From Halopelagius longus (GTDB lineage Archaea > Halobacteriota > Halobacteria > Halobacteriales > Haloferacaceae): 64,000 nucleotides of DNA. Position numbers and translations under genes: made by a program. Positions 1,939-44,415 of this stretch are shown here, in pieces; the stretch's first letter is position 1, and each line of letters starts with the position of its first letter. The notes below the pieces were generated by a model. The model did no database searches, had not been told where the DNA came from, and worked only from the letters and a program-made list of their open reading frames with translations. The stretch covers positions 1,054,001-1,118,000 of the forward strand of contig NZ_FNKQ01000001.1 of the NCBI RefSeq assembly GCF_900100875.1, written 5' to 3'.

Positions 1939-3609
1939 CTACAGACGCTTCGAGACGTACGGGCCGTCTTGGTGGTAGCCGAGTTTGTTCTTGTAGTACT
2001 CGCGGACGCCGATACCGCTGATGATGCTGAGTTTGTCGTAGCCGGCGTCTCTGGACATCTCTTCGGCGCGTTCGACGAGTCTGCGGCCGTACCCCTTGTG
2101 CTGCCAATCCCCTTCTCCACCGATACCGACTTCGCTCCCGTAGACGTGGAGTTCGCGGACGAGGGCGGCGTTCTCTAACTCCCTCCGAACCGGGTCGTTC
2201 GGGAACCGGAGGCGACAGAAGCCGACCAGAAGGTCCTTCTGTCGGTCCTCGAAGGAGACGAACCGTTCGGTGCCGCCGGCCACCTCGTACTCCATCACGT
2301 CGAGTTCGACGTTCTCGGGGTCGGGGTCCTCGTCGTTCATCCCCACCTCGCGGGCGCGGATGTCGTTTATCTCGATGCCCTTCTCCTCGGCTTTCTGTGC
2401 GGCCAGTTGCCGGAGGTTCGACTTCCAGACGCCCGCGTCGATGAAGTCCGCGGGGATGTCTCGCTGGACGCGTTGGAGGCGGGTGTACTTCGGAATCATC
2501 CCCATCACCTCCGCGACTATCTCCGCGGCCTCCTCGTTGCCGAGGGGTTCGAACTCGTCGCGCCGCCACTGGTCGTAGATGCGCGTCCCGCGGACGACGA
2601 GCGTCGGGTATATCTTCAGGTAGTCCGGCCGGTAGTCCTCGTTCTCGAATATCTGCCGGAAGTCTTCGAGGATCATCTCCTTCGTCATCCCGGGTTGCCC
2701 CGGCATCATGTGGAAGCCCACCTTGAACGCGGCGTCGCGGAGGCGGCGGTTCGCGTCGATTGAGGCCTGTACGCCGTGGCCGCGGTGCATCTCGCGGTTG
2801 ACGCGTTCGTACGTCGTCTGGACGCCCACCTCCACCTTCGTCGCGCCCAAATCGAGCATCCGGTCTATCTGCTCGGGGTCGCACCAGTCGGGCTTCGTCT
2901 CGAACGTCGTCCCGATGTTGCGCACATCGGCCGTCTCGTTCTCCGCGATGACGTCTTCGAGGTATTTGAACTCGACGTCCTCGGGGTCGGGCTTGAACGA
3001 CTGGTCCTCGGCCGGAGTCGGTTCGGAGTCTACGTCGTAGTCGTTCATCGCCTCCAACGCGCGCTTGACGAACCACTCTTGGTAGTCGTGACTGCGCGCG
3101 GTCATCGTCCCGCCCATCAGGATGAGTTCAACCTTGTCGACGGGGTGGCCGATGTTCCGCAACTGTTCGAGGCGGAGCGTCACCTGCCCGTAGGGGTCGT
3201 AGTCGTTCTGGACGCCGCGGGCGGCGGCGGGTTCGTGACCCGTGTACGACTGCGAGGAGGAGAACTCCGAGGCGGGGCCGCCGGGACAGTAGAGACATTT
3301 CCCGTGCGGGCACATGTGCGGCGACGTCATGATGGCCACCGGCGAGACGCCCGACGCCGTGCGGACGGGCTTTCGCATGACCACCTCTTTGACCTCCTCG
3401 CGGCGCGCCTCGGGCGCGTATTCGAGGATGTCCGAGTTCTTCGGCACCTTCGGCGAGGAGTGGTTCGAACAGGCGTTCAGTTTCGCCGATTCGAGGTCGT
3501 CGCGCTCTATCTCGCCGTCGAGGATGCGTTCGACGAGTTCCTCGCACGTCCGGCGGAACGCTTCCGTCTCGGTGGGGTCGTCCGCTTCGGGTTCGGCGTC
3601 GGCGCTCAC
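1939..3609 (-). CDS. elp3: tRNA uridine-34 5-carboxymethyl-modifying enzyme Elp3 (radical SAM/acetyltransferase)
   Basis: 556 residues, the normal archaeal Elp3 length. It makes the 5-carboxymethyl side chain on wobble uridine-34 of tRNA. The N-terminal tRNA-binding region is followed by the radical-SAM [4Fe-4S] site with the Elp3-type spacing, CPHGKCLYCPGGP (around residue 100), the HDYQEWF and DLGATKVEVGVQTTYE segments, and a C-terminal GNAT domain (about 400-556) with GEGDWQHKGYGRRLVERAEE as acetyl-CoA loop. The start is a GTG (MSADAEPEADD). Archaea use a single Elp3 without Elongator partners. Its 3' end is duplicated just downstream. Confidence 0.95.
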   Translation of the reverse strand: MSADAEPEADDPTETEAFRRTCEELVERILDGEIERDDLESAKLNACSNHSSPKVPKNSDILEYAPEARREEVKEVVMRKPVRTASGVSPVAIMTSPHMCPHGKCLYCPGGPASEFSSSQSYTGHEPAAARGVQNDYDPYGQVTLRLEQLRNIGHPVDKVELILMGGTMTARSHDYQEWFVKRALEAMNDYDVDSEPTPAEDQSFKPDPEDVEFKYLEDVIAENETADVRNIGTTFETKPDWCDPEQIDRMLDLGATKVEVGVQTTYERVNREMHRGHGVQASIDANRRLRDAAFKVGFHMMPGQPGMTKEMILEDFRQIFENEDYRPDYLKIYPTLVVRGTRIYDQWRRDEFEPLGNEEAAEIVAEVMGMIPKYTRLQRVQRDIPADFIDAGVWKSNLRQLAAQKAEEKGIEINDIRAREVGMNDEDPDPENVELDVMEYEVAGGTERFVSFEDRQKDLLVGFCRLRFPNDPVRRELENAALVRELHVYGSEVGIGGEGDWQHKGYGRRLVERAEEMSRDAGYDKLSIISGIGVREYYKNKLGYHQDGPYVSKRL

Positions 3610-3801
3610 GGCCGACTCACCTCCGCGGACGGGGCAAGCAGAGAGACGTGTTTCATTACCGGGGAATCGACGCGTTTCGGGGTTAAGGGTGTCGCTCGCG
3701 GTGGACCGAGAGCGGAGACTGAGAGCGAAGACGGAGAGGGTCGCGGAGCCGTCGCTGGGAAGGAGAGAGGACGAACGGACGGAGGACGCGATGTCCGTGC
3801 G

Positions 3802-6006
3802 TTAGAACTGGTCGACGACGGCGTCGATGACCGCGTCGATGACGTCGTCGCGTGCGCCGGAGAGGAACTCGATGCGGTTCTCGCGGACGCCGACGGCGGT
3901 CACGCCGCCCTCGGGGACGGCGTCGCGGGCGGCCTCCGCGGCGGTGCGCACGTCGATGTCGGCCGTCGAACGGACGAACAGTTCGTCCATCGAGGCGGCG
4001 ACGGTGACGTACCGGTCGCCCTCGCGGTTGCGACGGTGGAGTTCGTCCACGAGGAGCGACGTCGGCGGGAAGTCGTACCGGTGCGTGTAGGAGTCGGCGT
4101 CGAGGACGGCGACGGTGACGCCCTCCACGTCGCGCGTCTCTAAGTTCGCCTGCGCCGTCTCGACTTCGTCGTCCAGCTTGATGCGGAACTGCTCGGCGAT
4201 GTGGCCGGCGAGTCCGTCGCTATCGACGGCGTCGCCCTCCGAGCGTTGCGCGCCGGGCGCGACGCCGTCCTCGAACAGGAGGTCGGTGACGAGTTCGCGC
4301 TTGTCCTCGTAGGACTGGTAGTACGCTTCCAAGGCGACGGCCTCGCGGAGTTCGCGGACCCGCTCTGCGTCGTATCCGGCGTTCTCGGCCAGTTCGACGT
4401 ACGATTCGGGCGCGTCCTCCCAGTAGCTCGCCGCGGGCAGGTGCGCGAGTTCGTCGGCCACCTCGTCGTTGACGGTCGCCGCGAGGTTCGCGCCGAGTGC
4501 GCCCGTCGAGAGGTCGTGGGCGTCCGCGCCGGCCAGGCCGGGGTTGACGAGCACTTCCGCCTCTTCTGCGACTTCCTCGTCGGCGTCGGCCGCCTCGACC
4601 ACGACGCGTTCGGCGTCGTAGACGCCGAGGAGACCGAGGCCGTCGAGCGATTCGGTGGTGCCGCCGGTGCCCACGAGCAAGACGAGGGGGAGCTTCTCGT
4701 CGTGACGGTCGCGGTCCTGCAGCATCCGGGTCACGTCGTTCGTCGCGGCGTCCATGCCGTAGACGGACTCGTCGAGGGGACGACGGACGAAGTAGTGGTA
4801 CTGCGCGTCGTCGCGCGCGTGTTCGTCCTCGATGAGGGGGAGAACCGCGCGTTCGACCGCGGCACCGGCGACGTAGCCGTCGGCGGTGGCGGCGTGGCGG
4901 ACGACGATGGGACGCGACTGGAGGACGGCGCGGCGGACGGCCTCCGCGGCGTCGAGGAGTTGCTCCGAGACGGCGTCGACGGGGTCGTGCGCCGCGAGGG
5001 GGGTCACGCCGTCGGGACGGGCCTTCGCGGAGAGGGCGTCGTCGAGTCGCTGTTCGACCTCGTCGGCCTCCTCGCTCGAGAGGACGGTGAGGTCCTCGGT
5101 TTCGACCTGCAGTTCGCCGCGGCGGCGTTCGACTTCGCCGGTGAGTCGGACGACGTCGCCCTCGCCCGCCTCGGGGTAGGCGCGGACGCCCGCCTCGACG
5201 AAGGCGGCGCAGTCGACGGTCCCCGTCTCGTCGCGCAGTTCGAAGATGGTCGGTCCGCCGGTCTGGCGAGCGCTCTCGATGATGCCCTCGACGGTGACGG
5301 TGTCGCCCACGCGGTCCGAGAGGGAGTCGATGCCGACGCGTTCGGGGACCTCCTCGGAGTCGGACGCAGCGTCGGATTCGGGCTCCGAATCGGATTCGGC
5401 GTCCGCGTCGGAGTCGGAGTCAGATTCGGACTCGGAGACCTGTTCCGCGGACCGGCCGGGCGTCTCGGCGGTCGAGGAGTCGGAGTCGGACGCCGACTCG
5501 TCGTCTTCGGCCGACGCGGAGGCGGAAGCGGAGGCGGAGACGGTTTCGTCGCCTTCGGTCGCCTCGTCTTCGCCGTTCTGCGAACGGGAAGAGGAAGACG
5601 AGGAGGAGGACATCCCCTTCGGCTTCGTCTTCACCGGGCCGTCGTCGTCGTCGGTGGAGGTTATCTTCTCGCCGTCGGCGTCGCTGTTCGGGTCGTGAAC
5701 GCGCGCGCCGCGGAACTCGCGTTCGCTCTGGCGGATGGACCACCCGAGGTCGATGTTACCGTTGTCTCGGATGTTCTTCACCTGCACGAACACCGTGTCG
5801 CCGGGTTCCCAATCGAGGCTCTCGAGTCTGCGGTCGAGTTCGCTCCGGTGGAGGAGACCGGTGACGCCGGGAGAGAGGTCGACGAACACACCGAATTCGG
5901 CGAAGCCGTCGACGGTACCCTTGTAGTACCGCCCGGGAGTGAGTTGCTGTGGGGAGTCGCCCCTGAAATCGAACCACACGTCTTCTTCGTGCGTTATCCA
6001 ATCCAT
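3802..6006 (-). CDS. RecJ-like DHH-family protein with S1 and OB domains
   Basis: 734 residues. An S1 RNA-binding domain (about 22-95: GRYYKGTVDGFAEFGVFVDL) is followed by a very acidic, Ser/Asp/Glu-rich linker (about 115-225), an OB-fold domain (about 230-305: DTVTVEGIIESARQTGG) and a C-terminal DHH/RecJ-like region (about 345-734). The DHH motif is degenerate (VVRHAATADGYVAGAA instead of a canonical DHH triad), so nuclease activity is uncertain. Haloarchaea carry several RecJ-like paralogues of this layout, thought to work in nucleic-acid processing or with replication factors. Low-complexity repetition in the linker is normal for halophilic acidic spacers. It stands alone, flanked by about 190 bp gaps. 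Confidence 0.8.
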   Translation of the reverse strand: MDWITHEEDVWFDFRGDSPQQLTPGRYYKGTVDGFAEFGVFVDLSPGVTGLLHRSELDRRLESLDWEPGDTVFVQVKNIRDNGNIDLGWSIRQSEREFRGARVHDPNSDADGEKITSTDDDDGPVKTKPKGMSSSSSSSSRSQNGEDEATEGDETVSASASASASAEDDESASDSDSSTAETPGRSAEQVSESESDSDSDADAESDSEPESDAASDSEEVPERVGIDSLSDRVGDTVTVEGIIESARQTGGPTIFELRDETGTVDCAAFVEAGVRAYPEAGEGDVVRLTGEVERRRGELQVETEDLTVLSSEEADEVEQRLDDALSAKARPDGVTPLAAHDPVDAVSEQLLDAAEAVRRAVLQSRPIVVRHAATADGYVAGAAVERAVLPLIEDEHARDDAQYHYFVRRPLDESVYGMDAATNDVTRMLQDRDRHDEKLPLVLLVGTGGTTESLDGLGLLGVYDAERVVVEAADADEEVAEEAEVLVNPGLAGADAHDLSTGALGANLAATVNDEVADELAHLPAASYWEDAPESYVELAENAGYDAERVRELREAVALEAYYQSYEDKRELVTDLLFEDGVAPGAQRSEGDAVDSDGLAGHIAEQFRIKLDDEVETAQANLETRDVEGVTVAVLDADSYTHRYDFPPTSLLVDELHRRNREGDRYVTVAASMDELFVRSTADIDVRTAAEAARDAVPEGGVTAVGVRENRIEFLSGARDDVIDAVIDAVVDQF

Positions 6007-7690: not shown

Positions 7691-8668
7691 GTGAAGTTCT
7701 ATAAATATACGAACGAATGTGTCGGGAGGCGGAGCGTACTGTCCGCCGTCGCCGCGAGTCTCGCAGTCGGCGCGAGCGCGGCGGGAGTGAGTGAAGCGAA
7801 GATGGACCGTTCCGGAATCACGGTCGAGAAGAACAACGGCGACGCCGTCGTGCGGAGCGACGAGGAACGGTGCAACGTCAGCGACGCCGTCCTCGACGAG
7901 GCGGGCGTCTCGACGGGCGAGCAGATTCGCGTCCGGGACGAGGGCGGCGCGTCGAAGTACACCTCCGGCCTCTACACCGTCGCCGGGAACTGCCGGCGGG
8001 CCGACACCGTCGAGATGGGGACGGACGGCCTCCGTCGGATGGCGTTCGACCGAGGGGCGGCGGTGAGCGTCCGCGCCGGCGCGCCGCACCCCGCCTACGA
8101 GACGAGGGCGGAGGCGAGGGCGAACGACGAGTACGTCGAACTCCTCCGCGACGGCGGGTCCGGTCTGGTCGCCTGTGCGCCCCACGGCGGGTACATCGAG
8201 TACAGAACCGACCGGCAGGCGGCGCGCGTCGCCGAGACGCTGGACGCGACGGAGTGGTCCTGCGTCGGTTACAACGACGGCGGCGGCGCGTACGACCGCT
8301 GGCACGTCGGTTCGACCGACATCGACCGGCGGTCGTTCCCGAAGTTAGACGAGATAGCCGACAGGGGGTTCGACCACGCAGTGAGTTTCCACGGCTTCTC
8401 GACGGACGCGATAGCCGTCGGCGGCGGCGCACCGGAGCCTCTCCGACTGGCGGTCCGCGACGCGATCGACGAGGCCACCGGCGGGCGGTACGACGTCCGT
8501 CTGGCCGACGAGGACGGCCCCTACGGCGGCGACTCCCCGGAGAACTTCGTCAACTGGCTCACCGCCGACGGGAACGGCGTTCAGATAGAGCAATCGAGCG
8601 ACGCGCGGTCGGACGACTGGGATACTATCGCGGACGCCGTGGCCGAGGTGTACGAACCGCGCCTGTAA
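7691..8668 (+). CDS. Tat-exported poly-gamma-glutamate hydrolase family protein
   Basis: 325 residues. A twin-arginine signal (GRRSVLSAVAASLAVGASAAG, about 12-32) directs the folded protein across the membrane. The mature part matches the phage-type poly-gamma-glutamate hydrolase family, zinc enzymes with a carboxypeptidase-like fold: VACAPHGGYIE (about 160) supplies the His/Glu zinc ligands, HAVSFHGFS (about 235) another His, and GVQIEQS (about 300) the conserved Glu segment. It is predicted to cut gamma-glutamyl polymers outside the cell. Its stop is 9 bp from the stop of pgsB on the opposite strand, placing degradation and synthesis genes together. The GTG start is chosen because it gives a full Tat signal. 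Confidence 0.85.
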   Translation: MKFYKYTNECVGRRSVLSAVAASLAVGASAAGVSEAKMDRSGITVEKNNGDAVVRSDEERCNVSDAVLDEAGVSTGEQIRVRDEGGASKYTSGLYTVAGNCRRADTVEMGTDGLRRMAFDRGAAVSVRAGAPHPAYETRAEARANDEYVELLRDGGSGLVACAPHGGYIEYRTDRQAARVAETLDATEWSCVGYNDGGGAYDRWHVGSTDIDRRSFPKLDEIADRGFDHAVSFHGFSTDAIAVGGGAPEPLRLAVRDAIDEATGGRYDVRLADEDGPYGGDSPENFVNWLTADGNGVQIEQSSDARSDDWDTIADAVAEVYEPRL

Positions 8669-8677
8669 CGCCTCTCG

Positions 8678-11131
8678 TCACTTCTCGGCTGACACCTCTC
8701 CTTCCGGACGCTTCCGGCGTATCTCCGAGAGCGCGGCGTTCAGCGACTCCACGTCGTCTATCCGCTTCGACTCCTCGCGTATCTCTCGGAGGAGTCGCTC
8801 GCGTTGGACCTCCTGCAAGGACGCGATTCGATCGCTGTTCTCGGAGACGGTCGCTTCGAGTTTCCCGACTCGCTCGGACGTTCGCTCCCGAATCTCCGCC
8901 AACTCGTCGCGAACGTCGTCCAGTCGGTCCGCGTTCGTCTCCGCGTCCGACCGAACGCCGGACAGTTCCTCGCGTATCGCGTCCGTCTCGGCCGCCTCGG
9001 CCGCCTCGCCCACCTCGGATTCGAGGTTCTCGACGCGGCTTCGGAGGGCCGCCACGTCGGATTCGAGAGAACCGAGTATCTCCCCCGCCGTCCCCTCCTC
9101 GTCGAGGAACTCCTCCAACGCGTCGATGTACGCCGTGAGGTCGGCGACCTGCGACTGGAGGTGGCGCATCTTCGCCCGTTCGTGGACGGGAACCGCGCCC
9201 ACGCTGTCGGCCAGTATCTCCGTCTCCGACTCAGAGAGGTCGTACTCGTCGAGTTCGTGGAGCAACACCGGTAACACGTCGCCTCTGTTCTCTATCCGCG
9301 GGTTGCTCTCGACGGCCGCATCCGCGGTTTCTCGCCCGTTCGCAGAGTCGGACGCGGCCGTCGAACGGCGCGTCGATACCTCCGTCGTCTCGTCGGTGTT
9401 CTCGGAATCGTCGTGCATTGTCGTCCCCTCCAGCGTCGCTACCGGTGCGTTCACCCCCGCGTTCGCTTCCGATTCGACAGCCGTTTCCTCCGTTCCAACC
9501 GCAGTCGCCTCCGCTTTGACCGCCGTCGCGGCCGATTCGGCCTCCGCCGCTTCCGTCTCCCACGGGAGGGCCGCGGGTTCGGTATCGGACAGGTGGATGG
9601 CCCGCCGCGCCCGGCGGTCTACCTCCTCCTCGAACTGTCGCATGAACTCCGCGACGGTGTTGCCCATCGACACTATCGGCAGTCCGGTCGAGAGGAGGTG
9701 GTCGAGTACCTCTTCGGGGTCGGCGTCCGGGCCGTACCGCGTCACCGGCGCGTTCACGTTCGCCGCGAAGACGTTCGTGTAGTCGCCGGCGGCGACGACG
9801 GTTTCGACCAACCCTCGCTCTACGAGCGTGTTCACGTAGTCGGCGAACGAGGCGGTCCGACTCCGGCGGTCCCCGCGGAGGTAGACGAACGGGACTATCG
9901 GGTCGTCGCCGACGAGGGCCCGACGGACGGCCTCGGTGCTCTCTATGTCGTTGACCTCCGCCGCGTTGAATATCCGCCCGCCGCCGGGAAGCGGCGTCCA
10001 CTCGGGCTGAATCGCGTCGAGATACCCCGCTACTTCCTCCTCCGGAAGCGGGTCCTGTCCGAGGTACTCCAACACTTCGTTGACGGCGTGGACCGTCTCG
10101 GCCCCGATGAGAGAGGCGTTCTTCTCGGGGATGTCGACCTGTTTGAGCGTTCCGCCGACCCGCTCGACTTCCTGCTTCAGGTATTCGTGCAGGACCGGGT
10201 GCTGTTCTCCGCTGACGACGTGTGCGCCCTCCGGGACCGACCGCGCGAAACTGCGCGCGATGTCTTGGCGCGTCTTCCCCATCGTATCTTGGTGGTCCTG
10301 CCGGACGTTCGTCAGGAGGATGACGTCGGGGTCGACGAACCGTTGATTGAACATCCGAGTCGTGTACTCCGTTATCCCCTGATTCTCGAACACGCCGACG
10401 CCCTCCGGCGAGTACGAATCGAGGACGGGGATGAACCGCCAGAACGTCTTGATGTTCTCGTACAGCGTGACGCGCGGGCCTTTTCGCTCGATGGGGATGT
10501 AATCGCCGTTGTGGAGGACGTGCGGTCGGTTCCCCGTTATCTTCACCAGCGTGTCGTACCCCCGGCGGTCGAACACGTCCGCGATGCGGCGCGTCGTCGA
10601 GGACTTCCCGCGGATGCCCATCACGACGATTCGCGCGTCGAGTTGGTCTAAGAACTCGTCGTGGCGTCGTCCCCGGTTCAGAATCGACCTCACGGAGCGT
10701 TTCAGTCGGTCCGTGTCGATGGCGAACGGGTGGCGTTCGGTCGTCTCGTCGCTTCCGCCGTAGAGGACGGGTACCGTCCCGACGGCGAGTTGCGTGACGC
10801 GTTCCGCGACCGCCCGCGTGTGCGCTTCGGACTCGTAGGTGGCCGGGGGGATGGCGACGACGTCGTTGCCCGCCCGCAACTGCCAGCGGAAGACGCCGTC
10901 CGTCTCCACGATGGGGAGCGATACCGGCTTCTCGACCTGTATGTGCCGACTGCGCAGGGAGCGCCGGTTCAGTTTCGAAGCGTAGAGCCGAGTCCGCTCG
11001 ACGTGTTCGCGGGCCTCCTCCGGCGAGTCGAACGTCTCCGCCGAGTGAGCGAGATACGTCTCGCCGTCGCGGAGTCGCCACCGCCACCAGCCCTCTTGCC
11101 CGACGATTTCGAAGGCGGCCTGCTGTATCAC
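8678..11131 (-). CDS. pgsB: PgsB/CapB-type poly-gamma-glutamate ligase, enlarged fusion
   Basis: 817 residues, about twice the roughly 390 of Bacillus PgsB. Two N-terminal UPF0339-like modules (about 7-52 and 74-117: GWWRWRLRDGETYLAHS and GVFRWQLRAGNDVVA) precede the Mur-ligase-like core with P-loop GIRGKSSTTR (172-181), ITGNRPHVLHNGDYIPIERKG-type region, and LLTNVRQDHQDTMGKTRQDI, all typical of PgsB. A low-complexity Ala/Glu/Thr linker and a long C-terminal coiled coil (about 630-817) follow. The start is a GTG overlapping the pgsC stop (GTGA), with a GGAGGTG ribosome site 8 bp before it, so translation is coupled. Predicted role: ATP-dependent gamma-linkage of glutamate at the membrane with PgsC. 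No pgsA is seen nearby. Confidence 0.85.
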   Translation of the reverse strand: MIQQAAFEIVGQEGWWRWRLRDGETYLAHSAETFDSPEEAREHVERTRLYASKLNRRSLRSRHIQVEKPVSLPIVETDGVFRWQLRAGNDVVAIPPATYESEAHTRAVAERVTQLAVGTVPVLYGGSDETTERHPFAIDTDRLKRSVRSILNRGRRHDEFLDQLDARIVVMGIRGKSSTTRRIADVFDRRGYDTLVKITGNRPHVLHNGDYIPIERKGPRVTLYENIKTFWRFIPVLDSYSPEGVGVFENQGITEYTTRMFNQRFVDPDVILLTNVRQDHQDTMGKTRQDIARSFARSVPEGAHVVSGEQHPVLHEYLKQEVERVGGTLKQVDIPEKNASLIGAETVHAVNEVLEYLGQDPLPEEEVAGYLDAIQPEWTPLPGGGRIFNAAEVNDIESTEAVRRALVGDDPIVPFVYLRGDRRSRTASFADYVNTLVERGLVETVVAAGDYTNVFAANVNAPVTRYGPDADPEEVLDHLLSTGLPIVSMGNTVAEFMRQFEEEVDRRARRAIHLSDTEPAALPWETEAAEAESAATAVKAEATAVGTEETAVESEANAGVNAPVATLEGTTMHDDSENTDETTEVSTRRSTAASDSANGRETADAAVESNPRIENRGDVLPVLLHELDEYDLSESETEILADSVGAVPVHERAKMRHLQSQVADLTAYIDALEEFLDEEGTAGEILGSLESDVAALRSRVENLESEVGEAAEAAETDAIREELSGVRSDAETNADRLDDVRDELAEIRERTSERVGKLEATVSENSDRIASLQEVQRERLLREIREESKRIDDVESLNAALSEIRRKRPEGEVSAEK

Positions 11132-12342
11132 GCGTCCCCACCTCCGGAGAGAATCGACGCCTCGAAGACGTCCTCGTCGGACGGGCGGTGGACGGTGTAC
11201 AGTTCTGCGAACGCCACGCAGACCACCACGATACCGGCACCGACGGCGAGTTCCGCGACACTCAGTCGCTGCGGGATGCCGTTCGGAAGGACCGTCCCGA
11301 GATACCGCGAGGCGGCGAGCATCGGGAGGAACGCCGCCAGTTGCAGAGGCGGAATCAACACCCGGTACTTCGGTGCCGTCACGTGTGCGCTGTAGGCGTT
11401 TATCCCCGCCAGAATGGCGACGAAGTACGCCGAGAGGCCGCGGACTATCGGAATCTGCAGGACTAACGGAACGGCGGCGACGAGTCCGAGACCGGCCGAG
11501 ATGCCGATGAGAACTCGGCCGTACAGCATCGTAGATCGGTGTATCGCCGAGATGGCGACGTACGTCAGCGCGAAGATGACGACGTAGAGGACGACGAGCC
11601 AGACGGACGCCAGCGCGTACACGGCGAGAAGTCCGACGGCGATGACGCCGATTCGGACGTCGTACCGTCGACGAATTCCCTCCGAGGCGGCCAGCGCGCC
11701 ACCGAAGATGCCGACGAGGAGTTCCCGGGGCAGGATGATGGGCTGTAACTGCTCGGAGACGACTGCGCCGCGCCAACGCGCCACGTCCGCGGTTTCGCTG
11801 TACAACACCGGCGGCGTCAGCGACCCCACGACGGGTCGGAGTTCCGGCGACACGAGAAGTACTCCGAGGGCCGTGAGGACGGCGAAGAGCGCGACAGACG
11901 TGACGATGTCGGCCTTTCGGTACTTCGGTTTGAGTTGGTGGAAGTTGAACGCCGCTAAGCCCGGGAGGATGCTCCCGATGAAGAGCACCGTTCGCATACG
12001 TTCCGCGACGAACGCCTCGAGGAGGAGCAACAGCCCCAACGGTATCGCACTCCCGATGAGTATCGCGGCGAGGAGTTCGTCGCGCCCGTAGATGAGCGTT
12101 CGCTTCTTCAGGAGGTCGAGCCCGAAGTACGCGATGAGTGTGCTCAGAACGAACACCGGGAGCGTGACGACGTTCTTGAGCGTGTACACTGCGAGTACGG
12201 GGATGGTGATGGTCCCCGAGAGACGATAGCCGAACACCTGCGTGGTCACCGCGACGGCGAAGAGACCGAGAACTGTCACTCCCGCCGCGACGATCATCGA
12301 GTAGCCGCCCCCATGGATTAGTTCCATAAACCCCGGCGCCAT
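11128..12342 (-). CDS. pgsC: PgsC/CapC-type poly-gamma-glutamate biosynthesis membrane protein
   Basis: About 404 residues of mostly membrane segments (around ten helices), longer than the roughly 150-residue Bacillus PgsC. The N-terminal half carries the CapC-like pattern VTVLGLFAVAVTTQVFGYRLSGTITIPVLAVYT-type helices and LLKKRTLIYGRDELLAA; the second half repeats a similar tract (MLYGRVLIGISAGLG), which suggests an internal duplication. It probably forms the membrane complex through which PgsB exports the polymer. Candidate starts are ATG at 12342 (MAPGF, chosen), ATG at 12327 (MELIH) and a TTG at 12378. The 3' end overlaps pgsB by 4 bp. Confidence 0.8.
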   Translation of the reverse strand: MAPGFMELIHGGGYSMIVAAGVTVLGLFAVAVTTQVFGYRLSGTITIPVLAVYTLKNVVTLPVFVLSTLIAYFGLDLLKKRTLIYGRDELLAAILIGSAIPLGLLLLLEAFVAERMRTVLFIGSILPGLAAFNFHQLKPKYRKADIVTSVALFAVLTALGVLLVSPELRPVVGSLTPPVLYSETADVARWRGAVVSEQLQPIILPRELLVGIFGGALAASEGIRRRYDVRIGVIAVGLLAVYALASVWLVVLYVVIFALTYVAISAIHRSTMLYGRVLIGISAGLGLVAAVPLVLQIPIVRGLSAYFVAILAGINAYSAHVTAPKYRVLIPPLQLAAFLPMLAASRYLGTVLPNGIPQRLSVAELAVGAGIVVVCVAFAELYTVHRPSDEDVFEASILSGGGDA

Positions 12343-12599
12343 TTCAAATTGTGGGCTGAAATCGGCAACTAGTGGCAATGAAATGGCAATATCTGAGAAT
12401 GAGAAACCACTAGCAAGTTTTCGTGTCGTTCGGAAAAACGGGAACGTACTAAGAGGATGAGTCGGGACGCGTCGTCCGTCGGACCGAGGTGGGGCGTATC
12501 CGCTTCGGCAGAGCGAAGAGGGAGTCGAAACGGACGATACTGTAGTCAGACGGAACTATATCGTTTTCTTACACCACGAACGACGGTGTTAGGACCGTG

Positions 12600-12607
12600 A
12601 ATTTATC
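12600..12607 (+). promoter_or_regulatory. TATA element of the histidine kinase gene
   Basis: AATTTATC is centred about 30 bp before ATG 12633. This favours the MSNRAGG start and a leaderless or nearly leaderless message over a GTG 36 bp further upstream. The rest of 12379-12632 holds no gene; a second AT-rich element (CTATATCG) is near 12555. Confidence 0.4.
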
Positions 12608-12632
12608 CTGTTCGGTGCTCTTTACCGCTGGT

Positions 12633-15600
12633 ATGAGCAACCGGGCTGGTGGCACCGGGTCGGCGTTTTGGGGAGACGGAGACGACGGAGGGGCCTGCGA
12701 ACGCTATCGGACCCTCGTGAACGCGGTGGACGACGGTATCTACCAACTCGACGCCGAGGGGACCGTCGTCGCGGCCAACGACTCTCTCGCGGAGTTGACG
12801 GGACGGACGCGCGAGGAACTACTCGGCGAACGCGCCTCCGTCGTCTTCGGCGACGGTGGCGGGTCGGCCGTCGAACGCGAACTCGACCGCCTCCGGACGA
12901 CCCCCGGCGAGCGAAGCGCCCGTCTCGAACTCACAGCCCGGACCGCGGAGGGCGAACGAGTTCCCTGCGACGTGCGGATGAGCGCGCTCGAATCCGACGG
13001 TACCGTGGAAGGCGCCGTCGGCATCGTCCGGGAACGGGCCGGCCGCGAGGGACGCGAGACCGACGAGGGAGGGATAGACCGAAAGCGCATGGTCGAAGCG
13101 CTCGAAGCCGCACGCGAAGGTATCAGCCTGCTCGACGCCGACGGCGAGTTCGTCTACGTGAACGACGCCTACGCCGAGACGTTCGGATACGACCCCGAGG
13201 AGATGGTCGGCGAACACTGGGACGAACTCGGCATCGAGGCCGACCCCGAGCGGTTCTACGGCCGGATTCTGCCGACTATCTCGGAGGAGGGCCAGTGGAC
13301 GGGGACGACGACCTGCGTCCGGAGCGACGGGAGTACGTTCCGCAGTCAGCATTCGCTCGTCTCCACCGGGGAGGGCGAACTCATCTGCCTCGTCCGGGAT
13401 ATCACCGAACGGAGAGAGCGCGAGCGTCGACTCCGGCGGTCGGAGCGTCGGTACCGAACGCTCGCCGAGCACTTCCCGAACGGGTTCGTGACGCTGTTCG
13501 ACGACGACTTGGAGTACACGCTGGCGGCGGGCCGGGGGTTCGAGCGGATTCCCCTCGAACCCGAAGCGGTCGAGGGCAGCCGGGTCGGCGAAGTCTGGGA
13601 GGGGGCCGCCGCCGACGCGCTCGAACCCCTGTTCCGCGGGGCGCTCGACGGCGAGGAGGGGACGGTCGAGGTGAGTTACGCGGACCGCGAGTGGGTGGTC
13701 CACGCCGTCCCGGTCACCGGCGAACGCGGCGACGTCTTCGCGGGCATGACGATGGCCCAAGACATCACCGAACGCAAGGAACGCGAACGCGAACTCGACG
13801 AGACGGTCCGCGAGTTACGCGAGAGCGAGACGCGGTTGCAGATAGCCCTCGAAGCCGGGGAGATGGGGATGTGGGAGCTCGACCTTCGGACCGGCGAGTC
13901 GCCCGTCCGGTCGCCGCAGCACGACCGTCTCTTCGGCTACGAGGAACCGATCGACGACTGGGGGTTCGAGCGGTTCCTCGACCACGTCCACCCGGACGAC
14001 CGAGAGCGGGTGGCCCGGACCTTCGAGGAGGCCCACGAGACGGGCGAGTGGCGGTTCGAGTGCCGAATCGTCCGGACCGACGGCGAGCGACGGTGGATAT
14101 CGGCGGACGGGGAGTTCTACGACGACGACGGCGGCGAACCCGTCCGCGCCGTGGGAACCGTTCGGGACGTCACGGAGCAGAAGGAACGCGAGCGGTATCT
14201 GCGCGACGCGAAGTCGCAACTGGAAGCCGCGGCCGAGGCCGGTGCGGTCGGAACGTGGGAGTGGTACATCCCCGACGACGAGTTCGTCACGAACGCCTCG
14301 CTCGCGCGGACGTTCGGCGTCGACCCCGAGGCGGCGCGCGAGGGCGTCTCGCTCGACCGCCTCCTCTCGTCTATCCACGAGGCCGACCGTGAGCGCGTCG
14401 AACGGGAGATAGCGGAGGCGATCGAGTCCTGCGGCGAGTACGAGTCGGAGTACCGCGTCCGCAACGCCGACGGCGAGATTCGGTGGGTCGTCGCCCGCGG
14501 TCACGTCGAGTGCGACGAGGACGGATTCCCGGCGGTGTTCCCCGGTGCGCTCACCGACATCACCGAGCGCAAGGAGGCCGAACGCAGAATCGAGGAGTCC
14601 GAACGGCGCTACCGGGCGCTCGTGGAGAACTTCCCGAACGGCGCGGTGGGACTGTTCGACGAGGAGTTCCGGTACACCGCCGTCGGCGGACAGCTCTTGG
14701 ACGAGGTCGGAGTTCCGAAGTCGGACCGAATCGGACGTAGCGTCTACGAGATATATCCGGACGAACTCCTCGAGGACATCAAGCCGTACTTCCGGGCCGC
14801 GCTCGACGGCGAGACGAACTCGTTCGAGGTCCAGTTCCACGACCGCCAGCTCTTCGCGTACACCCTGCCCGTCAGGAACGCCGACGACGAGGTGAACGCG
14901 GGGATGCTCGTCGTCCAAGACGTCACCGAACGCCGGGAGGCCGAACGGGAACTCCGCGAGAGCGAAGCGAAGTTCCGGATGCTCGCCGAGAACCTCGACG
15001 AAATCGTCTGGATGGCGACCGAGGACGGCGAGGAGTTCGTCTACATCAACCCCGCGTTCGAGGAGGTGTGGGGGATCGACAGGGAGACCCTGTACGACGA
15101 GCCGCTCTCCTTCCTCGACGCCGTCCACCCCGACGACCGCAGCCGCGTCCGAGAGGGGTTCACCGCGCTCCCCGAGACGGATTACGACGAGGAGTTCCGG
15201 GTCGTCCGGCCCGACGGCGAGGTCAGGTGGGTCCACGCGCGGGGAGCCCGCGTGTACGACGAGAGCGGGGAGATGTCCCGCATCGTGGGCATCGGCGAGG
15301 ACGTCACTGAGCGAGTCGAGCGCGAACGCGAACTCGAACGGAGCGAGCGTCGCTACCGGACGGTCGTCGAGAACTTCCCGAACGGTGCCGTGGGCCTCGT
15401 CGACGAGGAGATGCGGTACGTGACCATCGGCGGGAACCCGCTCACCGAGTCCGACCTGACGGCCGACGACCTCGAAGGGCGGCCGGTGCGGGAGGTGCTG
15501 TCGCCGGTGTTGGCCGACCACCTCGCGCCGCGGTACCAGGCTGCGCTCGACGGCGAGGCGAACACGTTCGAGTACGCGCACGAGGACGGGAGGTACACCG

Positions 15601-16796
15601 AGTTCCGCACGTTCCCCGTCCGAGACGACGACGGTACCGTCTTCGGCGCGATGGGGATGTCGCAGGACATCACCGAACGGGTCGAACGCGAGGCCGAACT
15701 CGAACGGGCGCTCGACTTGCTCGGGCGGACCGAACAGATAGCGGACGTGGGCGGGTGGGAGATAGACCCCGAGACGAGGGACGTGTTCTGGACCGACCAC
15801 ATCTTCTCCCTCCTGGAGGTGGACGCCGACGAGGAACCGCCGCTCGAGGAGGCCCTCGACATGTACCACGAGGAGGACCGGCCGATAGTCGAGGACGCCG
15901 TCGAGGAGGCGTTAGCCTCCGGCGAGCCGTTCGACGCCGAGGTTCGACTCCGAACGGCGGCCAGCGGCGAGGTGCGCTGGCTCCGGCTTCAGGGCGTTCC
16001 GCAGACGGTGGACGGCGACGTGGTCTCCCTCCGCGGGGCGGCCCAAGACGTCACCGATCGCAAACAGCGCGAACGGCGACTCGAAGAGCTGATAGAGCGG
16101 TTGGAGGAGTCCAACGAGCGGTTAGAGCAGTTCGCCTACGCCGCCTCCCACGACCTGCAGGAACCCCTGCGGATGGTGTCGAGCTACCTCCGACTCGTGG
16201 AGCGACGGTACGCCGACGAACTCGACGAGGACGGCCGGGAGTTCGTCGAGTTCGCCGTCGACGGGGCCGACCGGATGCGCGAGATGATAGAGGGGTTGCT
16301 CCAGTACTCCCGGGTCGACTCCCGCGGAAACCCCCTCGAACCGGTCGAGTTGGACGCCGTTCTCGCGGACGTTCGCGACGACCTACAGGTTCGGATCGAG
16401 GAGACCGACGCCGAGATTACCGCCGAGTCGCTCCCCCGCGTCGAGGGCGACGGCGGGCAGTTGCGCCAAGTGTTTCAGAACCTGCTCGACAACGCTCTCG
16501 AGTACAGCGGCGACGAACCGCCGCGGGTGCACGTCTCGGCCGAACGGGACGGCCAGCGGTGGGAAATCTCGGTCGCTGACGAGGGAATCGGCATCGACCC
16601 GGAGGACGCCGACCGCGTCTTCGAGGTGTTCGAGAGCCTCCACGCCCCCGACGAACACTCGGGGACGGGAATCGGCCTCGCCCTCTCGGAGCGGATACTC
16701 GAACGACACGGCGGCGACATCCGGGTCGAGTCCGAACCGGGCGAGGGAGCGACGTTCACGTTCACGCTCCCCGCCGACGGCGAGGACGGGAAGTGA
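12633..16796 (+). CDS. Multi-PAS sensor histidine kinase (about nine PAS domains)
   Basis: 1387 residues, soluble: no membrane helix is apparent. Nine PAS-type units can be counted from their openings, e.g. RYRTLVNAVDDGIYQLDAEG, AAREGISLLDADGEF, three copies of a (Y/F)R.LVENFPNGAVGL-like start, two GTWEW/GMWELD PAS_3-like units, and an (E)IADVGGWEIDPE unit; several end in DVTER-type PAC segments. The HisKA box (FAYAASHDLQEPLRM) contains the phospho-accepting His, followed by HATPase N box NLLDNALEYS, G1 VADEGIGIDP and G2 HSGTGIGLALS. Its phospho-partner is unknown; no receiver domain is fused or adjacent. Likely integrates redox, light or ligand signals in the cytoplasm. Confidence 0.92.
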   Translation: MSNRAGGTGSAFWGDGDDGGACERYRTLVNAVDDGIYQLDAEGTVVAANDSLAELTGRTREELLGERASVVFGDGGGSAVERELDRLRTTPGERSARLELTARTAEGERVPCDVRMSALESDGTVEGAVGIVRERAGREGRETDEGGIDRKRMVEALEAAREGISLLDADGEFVYVNDAYAETFGYDPEEMVGEHWDELGIEADPERFYGRILPTISEEGQWTGTTTCVRSDGSTFRSQHSLVSTGEGELICLVRDITERRERERRLRRSERRYRTLAEHFPNGFVTLFDDDLEYTLAAGRGFERIPLEPEAVEGSRVGEVWEGAAADALEPLFRGALDGEEGTVEVSYADREWVVHAVPVTGERGDVFAGMTMAQDITERKERERELDETVRELRESETRLQIALEAGEMGMWELDLRTGESPVRSPQHDRLFGYEEPIDDWGFERFLDHVHPDDRERVARTFEEAHETGEWRFECRIVRTDGERRWISADGEFYDDDGGEPVRAVGTVRDVTEQKERERYLRDAKSQLEAAAEAGAVGTWEWYIPDDEFVTNASLARTFGVDPEAAREGVSLDRLLSSIHEADRERVEREIAEAIESCGEYESEYRVRNADGEIRWVVARGHVECDEDGFPAVFPGALTDITERKEAERRIEESERRYRALVENFPNGAVGLFDEEFRYTAVGGQLLDEVGVPKSDRIGRSVYEIYPDELLEDIKPYFRAALDGETNSFEVQFHDRQLFAYTLPVRNADDEVNAGMLVVQDVTERREAERELRESEAKFRMLAENLDEIVWMATEDGEEFVYINPAFEEVWGIDRETLYDEPLSFLDAVHPDDRSRVREGFTALPETDYDEEFRVVRPDGEVRWVHARGARVYDESGEMSRIVGIGEDVTERVERERELERSERRYRTVVENFPNGAVGLVDEEMRYVTIGGNPLTESDLTADDLEGRPVREVLSPVLADHLAPRYQAALDGEANTFEYAHEDGRYTEFRTFPVRDDDGTVFGAMGMSQDITERVEREAELERALDLLGRTEQIADVGGWEIDPETRDVFWTDHIFSLLEVDADEEPPLEEALDMYHEEDRPIVEDAVEEALASGEPFDAEVRLRTAASGEVRWLRLQGVPQTVDGDVVSLRGAAQDVTDRKQRERRLEELIERLEESNERLEQFAYAASHDLQEPLRMVSSYLRLVERRYADELDEDGREFVEFAVDGADRMREMIEGLLQYSRVDSRGNPLEPVELDAVLADVRDDLQVRIEETDAEITAESLPRVEGDGGQLRQVFQNLLDNALEYSGDEPPRVHVSAERDGQRWEISVADEGIGIDPEDADRVFEVFESLHAPDEHSGTGIGLALSERILERHGGDIRVESEPGEGATFTFTLPADGEDGK

Positions 16797-44235: not shown

Positions 44236-44415
44236 GTGTCAGCGACGTTCGAGCTCTACGAGGACACGGTCGGACAGTACCGATGGCGGCTCGTCCACGA
44301 CAACGGAAACGTCATCGCCGACAGCGGAGAGGGGTACGCCTCGAAGCAGAAGGCGAAACAGGGCATCCGGAGCGTGAAGTCGAACGCGCCGGAGGCGACC
44401 ATCGAAGAGCTGTGA
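44236..44415 (+). CDS. UPF0339/DUF1508 small protein (HVO_2922-like)
   Basis: 59 residues from GTG: a single module FELYEDTVGQYRWRLVHDNG, then VIADSGEGYASKQKAKQGI, the UPF0339 signature (WRxxxxNGxxIAxSxEGYxSxxxA). It forms a small beta-alpha dimer in known relatives; function is unknown. It lies directly before the proteasome alpha gene, a neighbourhood I recall from Haloferax (HVO_2922 and psmA2). Two copies of the same module open PgsB in this window. Confidence 0.8.
   Translation: MSATFELYEDTVGQYRWRLVHDNGNVIADSGEGYASKQKAKQGIRSVKSNAPEATIEEL

Follow-up and report, generated by a model that had tools for sequence, protein, structure and literature searches.

The window analysed here is a stretch of 64,000 nucleotides from the genome of Halopelagius longus (3.87 Mb in 8 contigs). 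It carries pgsC and pgsB on one strand, with a hydrolase gene converging on pgsB and a large histidine kinase gene diverging from pgsC (Table 1). The TGA stop of pgsC and the GTG start of pgsB overlap by 4 nt in a shared GTGA, with a GGAGGTG site 7 nt upstream of the GTG, while the stops of the hydrolase gene and pgsB are separated by exactly 9 bp (8669–8677). An earlier note, made from the sequence alone, had described this pgsC–pgsB coupling, the convergent Tat-exported hydrolase with its 9-bp gap, and a PgsB of 817 residues; all three were confirmed, the length from coordinates 8678–11131. Its assignment of the locus to the poly-γ-glutamate type is also supported, through family matches to CapC, TIGR04012 and Gamma_PGA_hydro.

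Table 1. Features of the pgsC–pgsB locus. Positions are those of the window; residue numbers refer to PgsB.
Feature	Position	Strand	Basis
pgsC, double-length CapC-type membrane protein, 404 aa, ATG start	11128..12342	(-)	Pfam Caps_synth_CapC
pgsB, 817 aa, GTG start	8678..11131	(-)	TIGR04012; relatives at 42–55% identity
Tat-exported poly-γ-glutamate hydrolase, 325 aa, convergent with pgsB	7691..8668	(+)	PF05908
PAS-rich histidine kinase, 1399 aa, divergent from pgsC, possible regulator	12597..16796	(+)	
UPF0339 module 1, aa 5–54	10970..11119	(-)	HVO_2922 model 1.1e-5; AlphaFold model
UPF0339 module 2, aa 74–125	10757..10912	(-)	DUF1508 23.0 bits; AlphaFold model
ATP-dependent γ-glutamyl ligase core, aa 155–513, P-loop GIRGKSST	9593..10669	(-)	TIGR04012; invariant columns; Foldseek
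Acidic low-complexity linker, aa 514–618	9278..9592	(-)	AlphaFold pLDDT under 50 at 539–631
Haloarchaeal coiled-coil-associated module, aa 609–699	9035..9307	(-)	matches in 271/292 haloarchaeal genomes
Predicted long helices / coiled coil, ~aa 619–807	8711..9277	(-)	AlphaFold model
Possible internal start, ATG at 9418–9416 (codon 572), GGAGG at 9431–9427	9416..9431	(-)	

The ligase core of PgsB was matched by TIGR04012 over aa 155–332 (E 7.4e-25), with a score of 87.5 bits that lies below the NCBIfam equivalog cut-off of 222.7. PgsC matched Pfam Caps_synth_CapC in two separate stretches (2.7e-29, 102.4 bits; cut-off 27) and is likewise under its own NCBIfam equivalog cut-off. Because both proteins miss these cut-offs, they are described here as divergent homologues with probable PgsB- and PgsC-like functions. 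The GIRGKSST motif and the invariant ligase columns are kept in an alignment of 43 PgsB relatives, and an adjacent CapC/PgsC gene, by which PgsB/CapB proteins are recognised, is present in the overlapping pgsC. The top Foldseek matches of the core were folylpolyglutamate synthases (4.4e-11), the nearest folds being those of FPGS and the Mur ligases, and in its predicted structure the core is folylpolyglutamate-synthase-like. The double length of PgsC is the norm throughout the sampled haloarchaea, compared with ∼154–201 aa from stop to stop in distant archaea, and pgsC precedes pgsB in nearly all homologous loci.

The hydrolase, which bears a twin-arginine signal (GRRSVLSAVAASLAVGA) but lacks a lipobox cysteine, scored 54.3 bits against Gamma_PGA_hydro (PF05908; 1.6e-14, gathering cut-off 22) and matched YndL at 3.2e-6. 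Its APHGGYIE and FHG motifs align with AIHGGGIE and LHG of YndL, and form a His/Glu/His site whose residues would, by analogy with the family, be the metal ligands. The APHGGxxE and FHG motifs are kept in this protein, the only PF05908 gene product of the genome, and lost in some relatives. Elsewhere in the sample, a hydrolase gene beside pgsB occurs mostly at loci of the short form of PgsB (lacking UPF0339 modules), and the window holds the only long-form locus (with these modules) to have one. A second PF05908-like type was seen beside pgsB at five loci (L102–L104, L109 and L113); the Glu of the site is replaced there, as is the second His in some, and this type is possibly non-catalytic.

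The N-terminal region of PgsB had been proposed to consist of two UPF0339-like modules. For the window protein alone the sequence evidence is modest: module 2 reached a borderline 23.0 bits against DUF1508 (PF07411; cut-off 22) when the N terminus was scanned on its own, and the full-length scan gave only 15.9 bits, under the same cut-off. Evidence across the relatives is stronger, with module matches at E up to 0.1 in 22/24 for the HVO_2922 model and 19/24 for DUF1508 (best 7.3e-8). Against solved structures, the module profile found HVO_2922 (6q2z) at 9.8e-5 and, weakly, NMB1088 (3bid) at 0.021.

Structure prediction had been named beforehand as the check on this region, a fold other than UPF0339 being the outcome that would count against the proposal. 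The AlphaFold model (pLDDT 85, pTM 0.77) has the twin β-β-β-α fold of E. coli YegP, to which it aligned with a Z score of 13.0 (2k8e; rmsd 2.1 over 110 residues; Foldseek 5.5e-5, probability 1.00). Shewanella SO3888 (2k49) gave the same Z of 13.0, and unrelated rows scored well below. The predicted structure thus identifies the N terminus as a twin, YegP-like UPF0339 unit. Since the solved relatives are themselves twin units of this fold, the region may be read as a compact pseudo-dimer that would contact the ligase or PgsC.

UPF0339 sequences also occur in other settings. The window contains a stand-alone UPF0339/DUF1508 gene at 44263–44412 (+; 82.5 bits), and no other PF07411 match in this genome exceeds the cut-off. 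A 932-aa haloarchaeal protein (L176, 992–3790, +) has N-terminal TM segments followed by about ten tandem UPF0339-like repeats, and similar frames of ∼930–1000 aa are widespread.

The spread of the modules was followed among PgsB relatives; a contig search with the single protein found none, and an alignment-based search gave 63 loci. The sample comprised 96 distinct archaeal PgsB sequences, the window protein included, in which modules were called by motif: they were present in 36, absent from 58 and undecidable in 2. The long form occurs in Halorubrum, Haloferax, Halopenitus, Natrinema, Natronomonas, Halobellus, Halorussus, Halohasta, Haloprofundus, Halomarina, Salinibaculum, Halovenus, Halonotius, Halobaculum, Halorientalis, Haloplanus, Salarchaeum and Methanohalophilus. 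On a maximum-likelihood tree built from the ligase core, with the UPF0339 modules left out, its distribution required 2 changes, whereas shuffled labels needed 22 on average. Long-form sequences make up nearly a single clade, the containing node of which has moderate support (92/84); the sole 'short' row inside it (L100, Methanococcoides) is a truncated sequence in which module 2 is retained. The simplest reading is that the N-terminal modules were gained once in archaeal PgsB.

Relatives of pgsB were also found in the Methanosarcinaceae (Methanohalophilus and Methanococcoides; L097, L100, L115 and L117). L115 and L117 were left off the tree, and L097 and L100 are nested among the haloarchaeal long-form sequences, a position suggestive of transfer of pgsB between haloarchaea and Methanosarcinaceae; the window PgsB is placed beside this methanogen pair with weak support (83/83). 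One further protein (L177, G116:C2:18000-28000, PgsB at 3324–5378, −) has the N-terminal twin unit and, in addition, two C-terminal DUF1508 modules (62.8 bits), a second, independent association of UPF0339 with PgsB. Individual pgsB loci are also interrupted, by an IS1595-family transposase gene between pgsC and pgsB in Salinigranum marinum (L040, 6091–6975) or by a split of pgsB into two annotated pieces in Halobellus sp. DFY28 (L042, 2456–3768).

At the other end of the protein, PgsB extends 319 aa beyond the last conserved motif of the core, compared with a median of 29 and a next longest tail of 182 (n = 96), and none of the 95 other sequences in the comparison carries this long coiled tail. 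The AlphaFold model shows the linker as disordered and places helices at 648–675, 682–712 and 716–806. The C-terminal coiled coil of the earlier note is therefore upheld by long helices predicted at 648–806, and the AlphaFold models agree with its domain order of two UPF0339 modules, ligase, linker and coil; its suggestion of envelope anchoring by the coil is without sequence support, no TM segment or signal being present there. The note had called the four-part fusion unusual. This stands for the C-terminal part, which is unique in the sample, and not for the N-terminal modules, which are the mark of what is essentially one clade: a search for the same domain order across haloarchaea recovered the modules in many genera and the tail in the window protein only, and relatives lacking the added parts, named in advance as evidence against the proposal, were found for the C-terminal part and not for the N-terminal one. 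The note knew of no description of the fusion, and no paper on a PgsB–UPF0339 fusion was found among the open-access papers searched.

Residues 609–699 matched in 271 haloarchaeal genomes (of 292), mostly at one place per genome and in unrelated proteins, with identities of up to 47% over nearly the full length in the best rows. A plain coil with chance matches was accordingly rejected for aa 609–699, given the near-full-length alignment and the single locus in most genomes; the helix downstream is generic. In the homologues that were read, the module is preceded by an acidic stretch and, at the N terminus, by an unrelated, conserved domain. That domain is absent from PgsB, which has only the module and coil of those proteins and is therefore a carrier of the fused part, not a member of their family. 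From these matches the C-terminal part looks like a lineage-specific fusion of a copied haloarchaeal module, not an anonymous coil. No Pfam family beyond generic coils was found for the module, and some other module-bearing proteins gave sub-threshold matches to DUF7310 in Pfam. The genome's own near-universal haloarchaeal protein (L180, G000:C2, 3747–5435, +) has a coiled coil joined by an acidic linker to a conserved N-terminal domain, with no fitting Pfam or NCBIfam family beyond generic coils.

An in-frame join made during assembly, or a neutral fusion devoid of function, is a doubtful explanation of the C-terminal part. In its favour are the restriction of the tail to one genome and the low complexity of its linker; however, the conserved pattern of the module is kept, and neither the reading frame nor the composition by codon position shows a break. 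Along the entire pgsB ORF, GC at the third codon position remains between 0.72 and 0.95 with no frame switch, and for this reason a frameshift artefact was rejected as the source of the 817-aa frame.

We consider it unlikely that the locus yields two products, the full-length PgsB–coil and a separate coiled-coil protein of ∼246 aa started at ATG 9418, the fusion having arisen by recent loss of a stop codon between neighbours. This reading draws on an in-frame ATG with GGAGG at 8-nt spacing just before the C-terminal module, and on the ends of all other PgsBs, which lie before the codon-572 region or soon after it. However, the signal is not significant, since a site just as good is found at 6.6–7.4% of internal ATGs, and a stand-alone orthologue of exactly the C-terminal part was looked for and not found. 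The internal Shine-Dalgarno and ATG were thus not accepted as proof of a second product and, given the ∼7% background, the codon-572 start is only a lead.

Taken together, the locus is best read as an archaeal PgsB–PgsC-type poly-γ-glutamate synthase with a conserved UPF0339 accessory unit and a lineage-specific C-terminal fusion, to which we give a probability of about 0.65. PgsB would use ATP to join glutamate through γ-amide bonds in its FPGS-like core. The double-length membrane PgsC would be its partner and presumably passes the chain outward, where the Tat-exported hydrolase may trim or release the polymer outside the cell. The twin UPF0339 unit most likely sits against the ligase or PgsC, and there it would tune assembly or handle substrate or chain; the C-terminal module most likely provides oligomer or scaffold contacts for PgsB in the cytoplasm, and the coil can be passive. 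As PgsB and PgsC do not reach their equivalog cut-offs, the product may instead be another γ-glutamyl or amino-acid polymer, or the locus may modify an acceptor and make no free γ-PGA, which would also suit the nearness of the core to FPGS and Mur ligase folds. That seems improbable given the CapC partner and the exported, convergently encoded PGA-family hydrolase, which has intact motifs and is the only one of the genome.

The earlier note had remarked that no pgsA was nearby. This is correct locally, as no adjacent capA/pgsA was found within the window locus, but it is not a special trait: a CapA-like gene (PF09587, 229 bits) lies ∼1.06 Mb away at C1:6133-6873, and the lack of pgsA at the locus is ordinary because most homologous loci, long- and short-form alike, have no detectable adjacent capA. 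The CapA profile, built from four sequences, may overlook divergent genes; with it, adjacent capA was detected at long-form L034, L041, L087 and L177 and at short-form L036, L105, L106 and L126. In B. subtilis, PGA was over-produced with pgsBC in the absence of pgsA, in contrast to earlier findings (PMC6029982). That the UPF0339 modules stand in for PgsA/CapA, as the absence of detectable capA beside pgsCB in most long-form loci might imply, is very improbable and without support from gene neighbourhoods, since four long-form loci do have capA, most short-form loci lack it too, CapA is exported and PgsB cytosolic, and this genome has its CapA-like gene elsewhere. In Haloplanus sp. GDY1 (L034), two complete pgsCB sets lie on one plasmid with capA between them. 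In a large subclade of long-form loci, pgsC has a response regulator gene as its neighbour, in some cases along with a histidine kinase gene; together with the divergent PAS kinase gene here, this hints at two-component control of the locus.

UPF0339/DUF1508, a family of unknown function, is hereby tied to a concrete enzyme in a clade of haloarchaea and a methanogen, and its function therefore becomes testable by truncation of a polymer-making enzyme. In the papers searched, this UPF0339–PgsB clade seems to be undescribed; it is a more general finding than the coil fusion, which is a private variant. Different fused modules are tolerated at the C terminus of archaeal PgsB, a point that matters for understanding how the synthesis of PGA is organised where no linked PgsA is present. 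Speculatively, UPF0339 units might be dedicated regulatory or chain-handling modules of a γ-glutamyl polymerase, gained once N-terminally in the archaeal clade and again C-terminally in L177, with the private coil tethering the synthase to a scaffold also used by the near-universal haloarchaeal coiled-coil protein.

Compared with known systems, the locus shares with Bacillus PgsBCA / CapBCA a Mur-ligase-type P-loop PgsB, a CapC membrane partner, an adjacent gene pair and a nearby hydrolase. It differs in the order C–B, the double-length PgsC, the twin UPF0339 N terminus, the fused C-terminal coil, the absence of an adjacent pgsA and scores under the equivalog cut-offs. Haloarchaeal CapB/CapC are known, for example, from Haloquadratum walsbyi (PMC1544339). 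In this species and in Haloarcula hispanica (L036) the pgsC–pgsB order, double-length PgsC and homologous ligase core are the same, whereas their PgsBs are of the short form without UPF0339 and, in Haloarcula, capA lies directly downstream. FolC/FPGS, the best Foldseek match of the core, is also a γ-glutamyl ligase but is soluble, acts on folate substrates and has no CapC partner. The hydrolase resembles the YndL / PghP-type PGA hydrolases (PF05908) in its APHGGxxE and FHG motifs and its score above the family cut-off, and is distinguished by its Tat signal and by an additional ∼100 aa at the N terminus. Finally, YegP (2k8e), SO3888 (2k49) and HVO_2922 (6q2z) have the same twin β-β-β-α modules as the PgsB N terminus, but these are stand-alone small UPF0339 proteins of unknown function, whereas in PgsB the modules are fused to a ligase.
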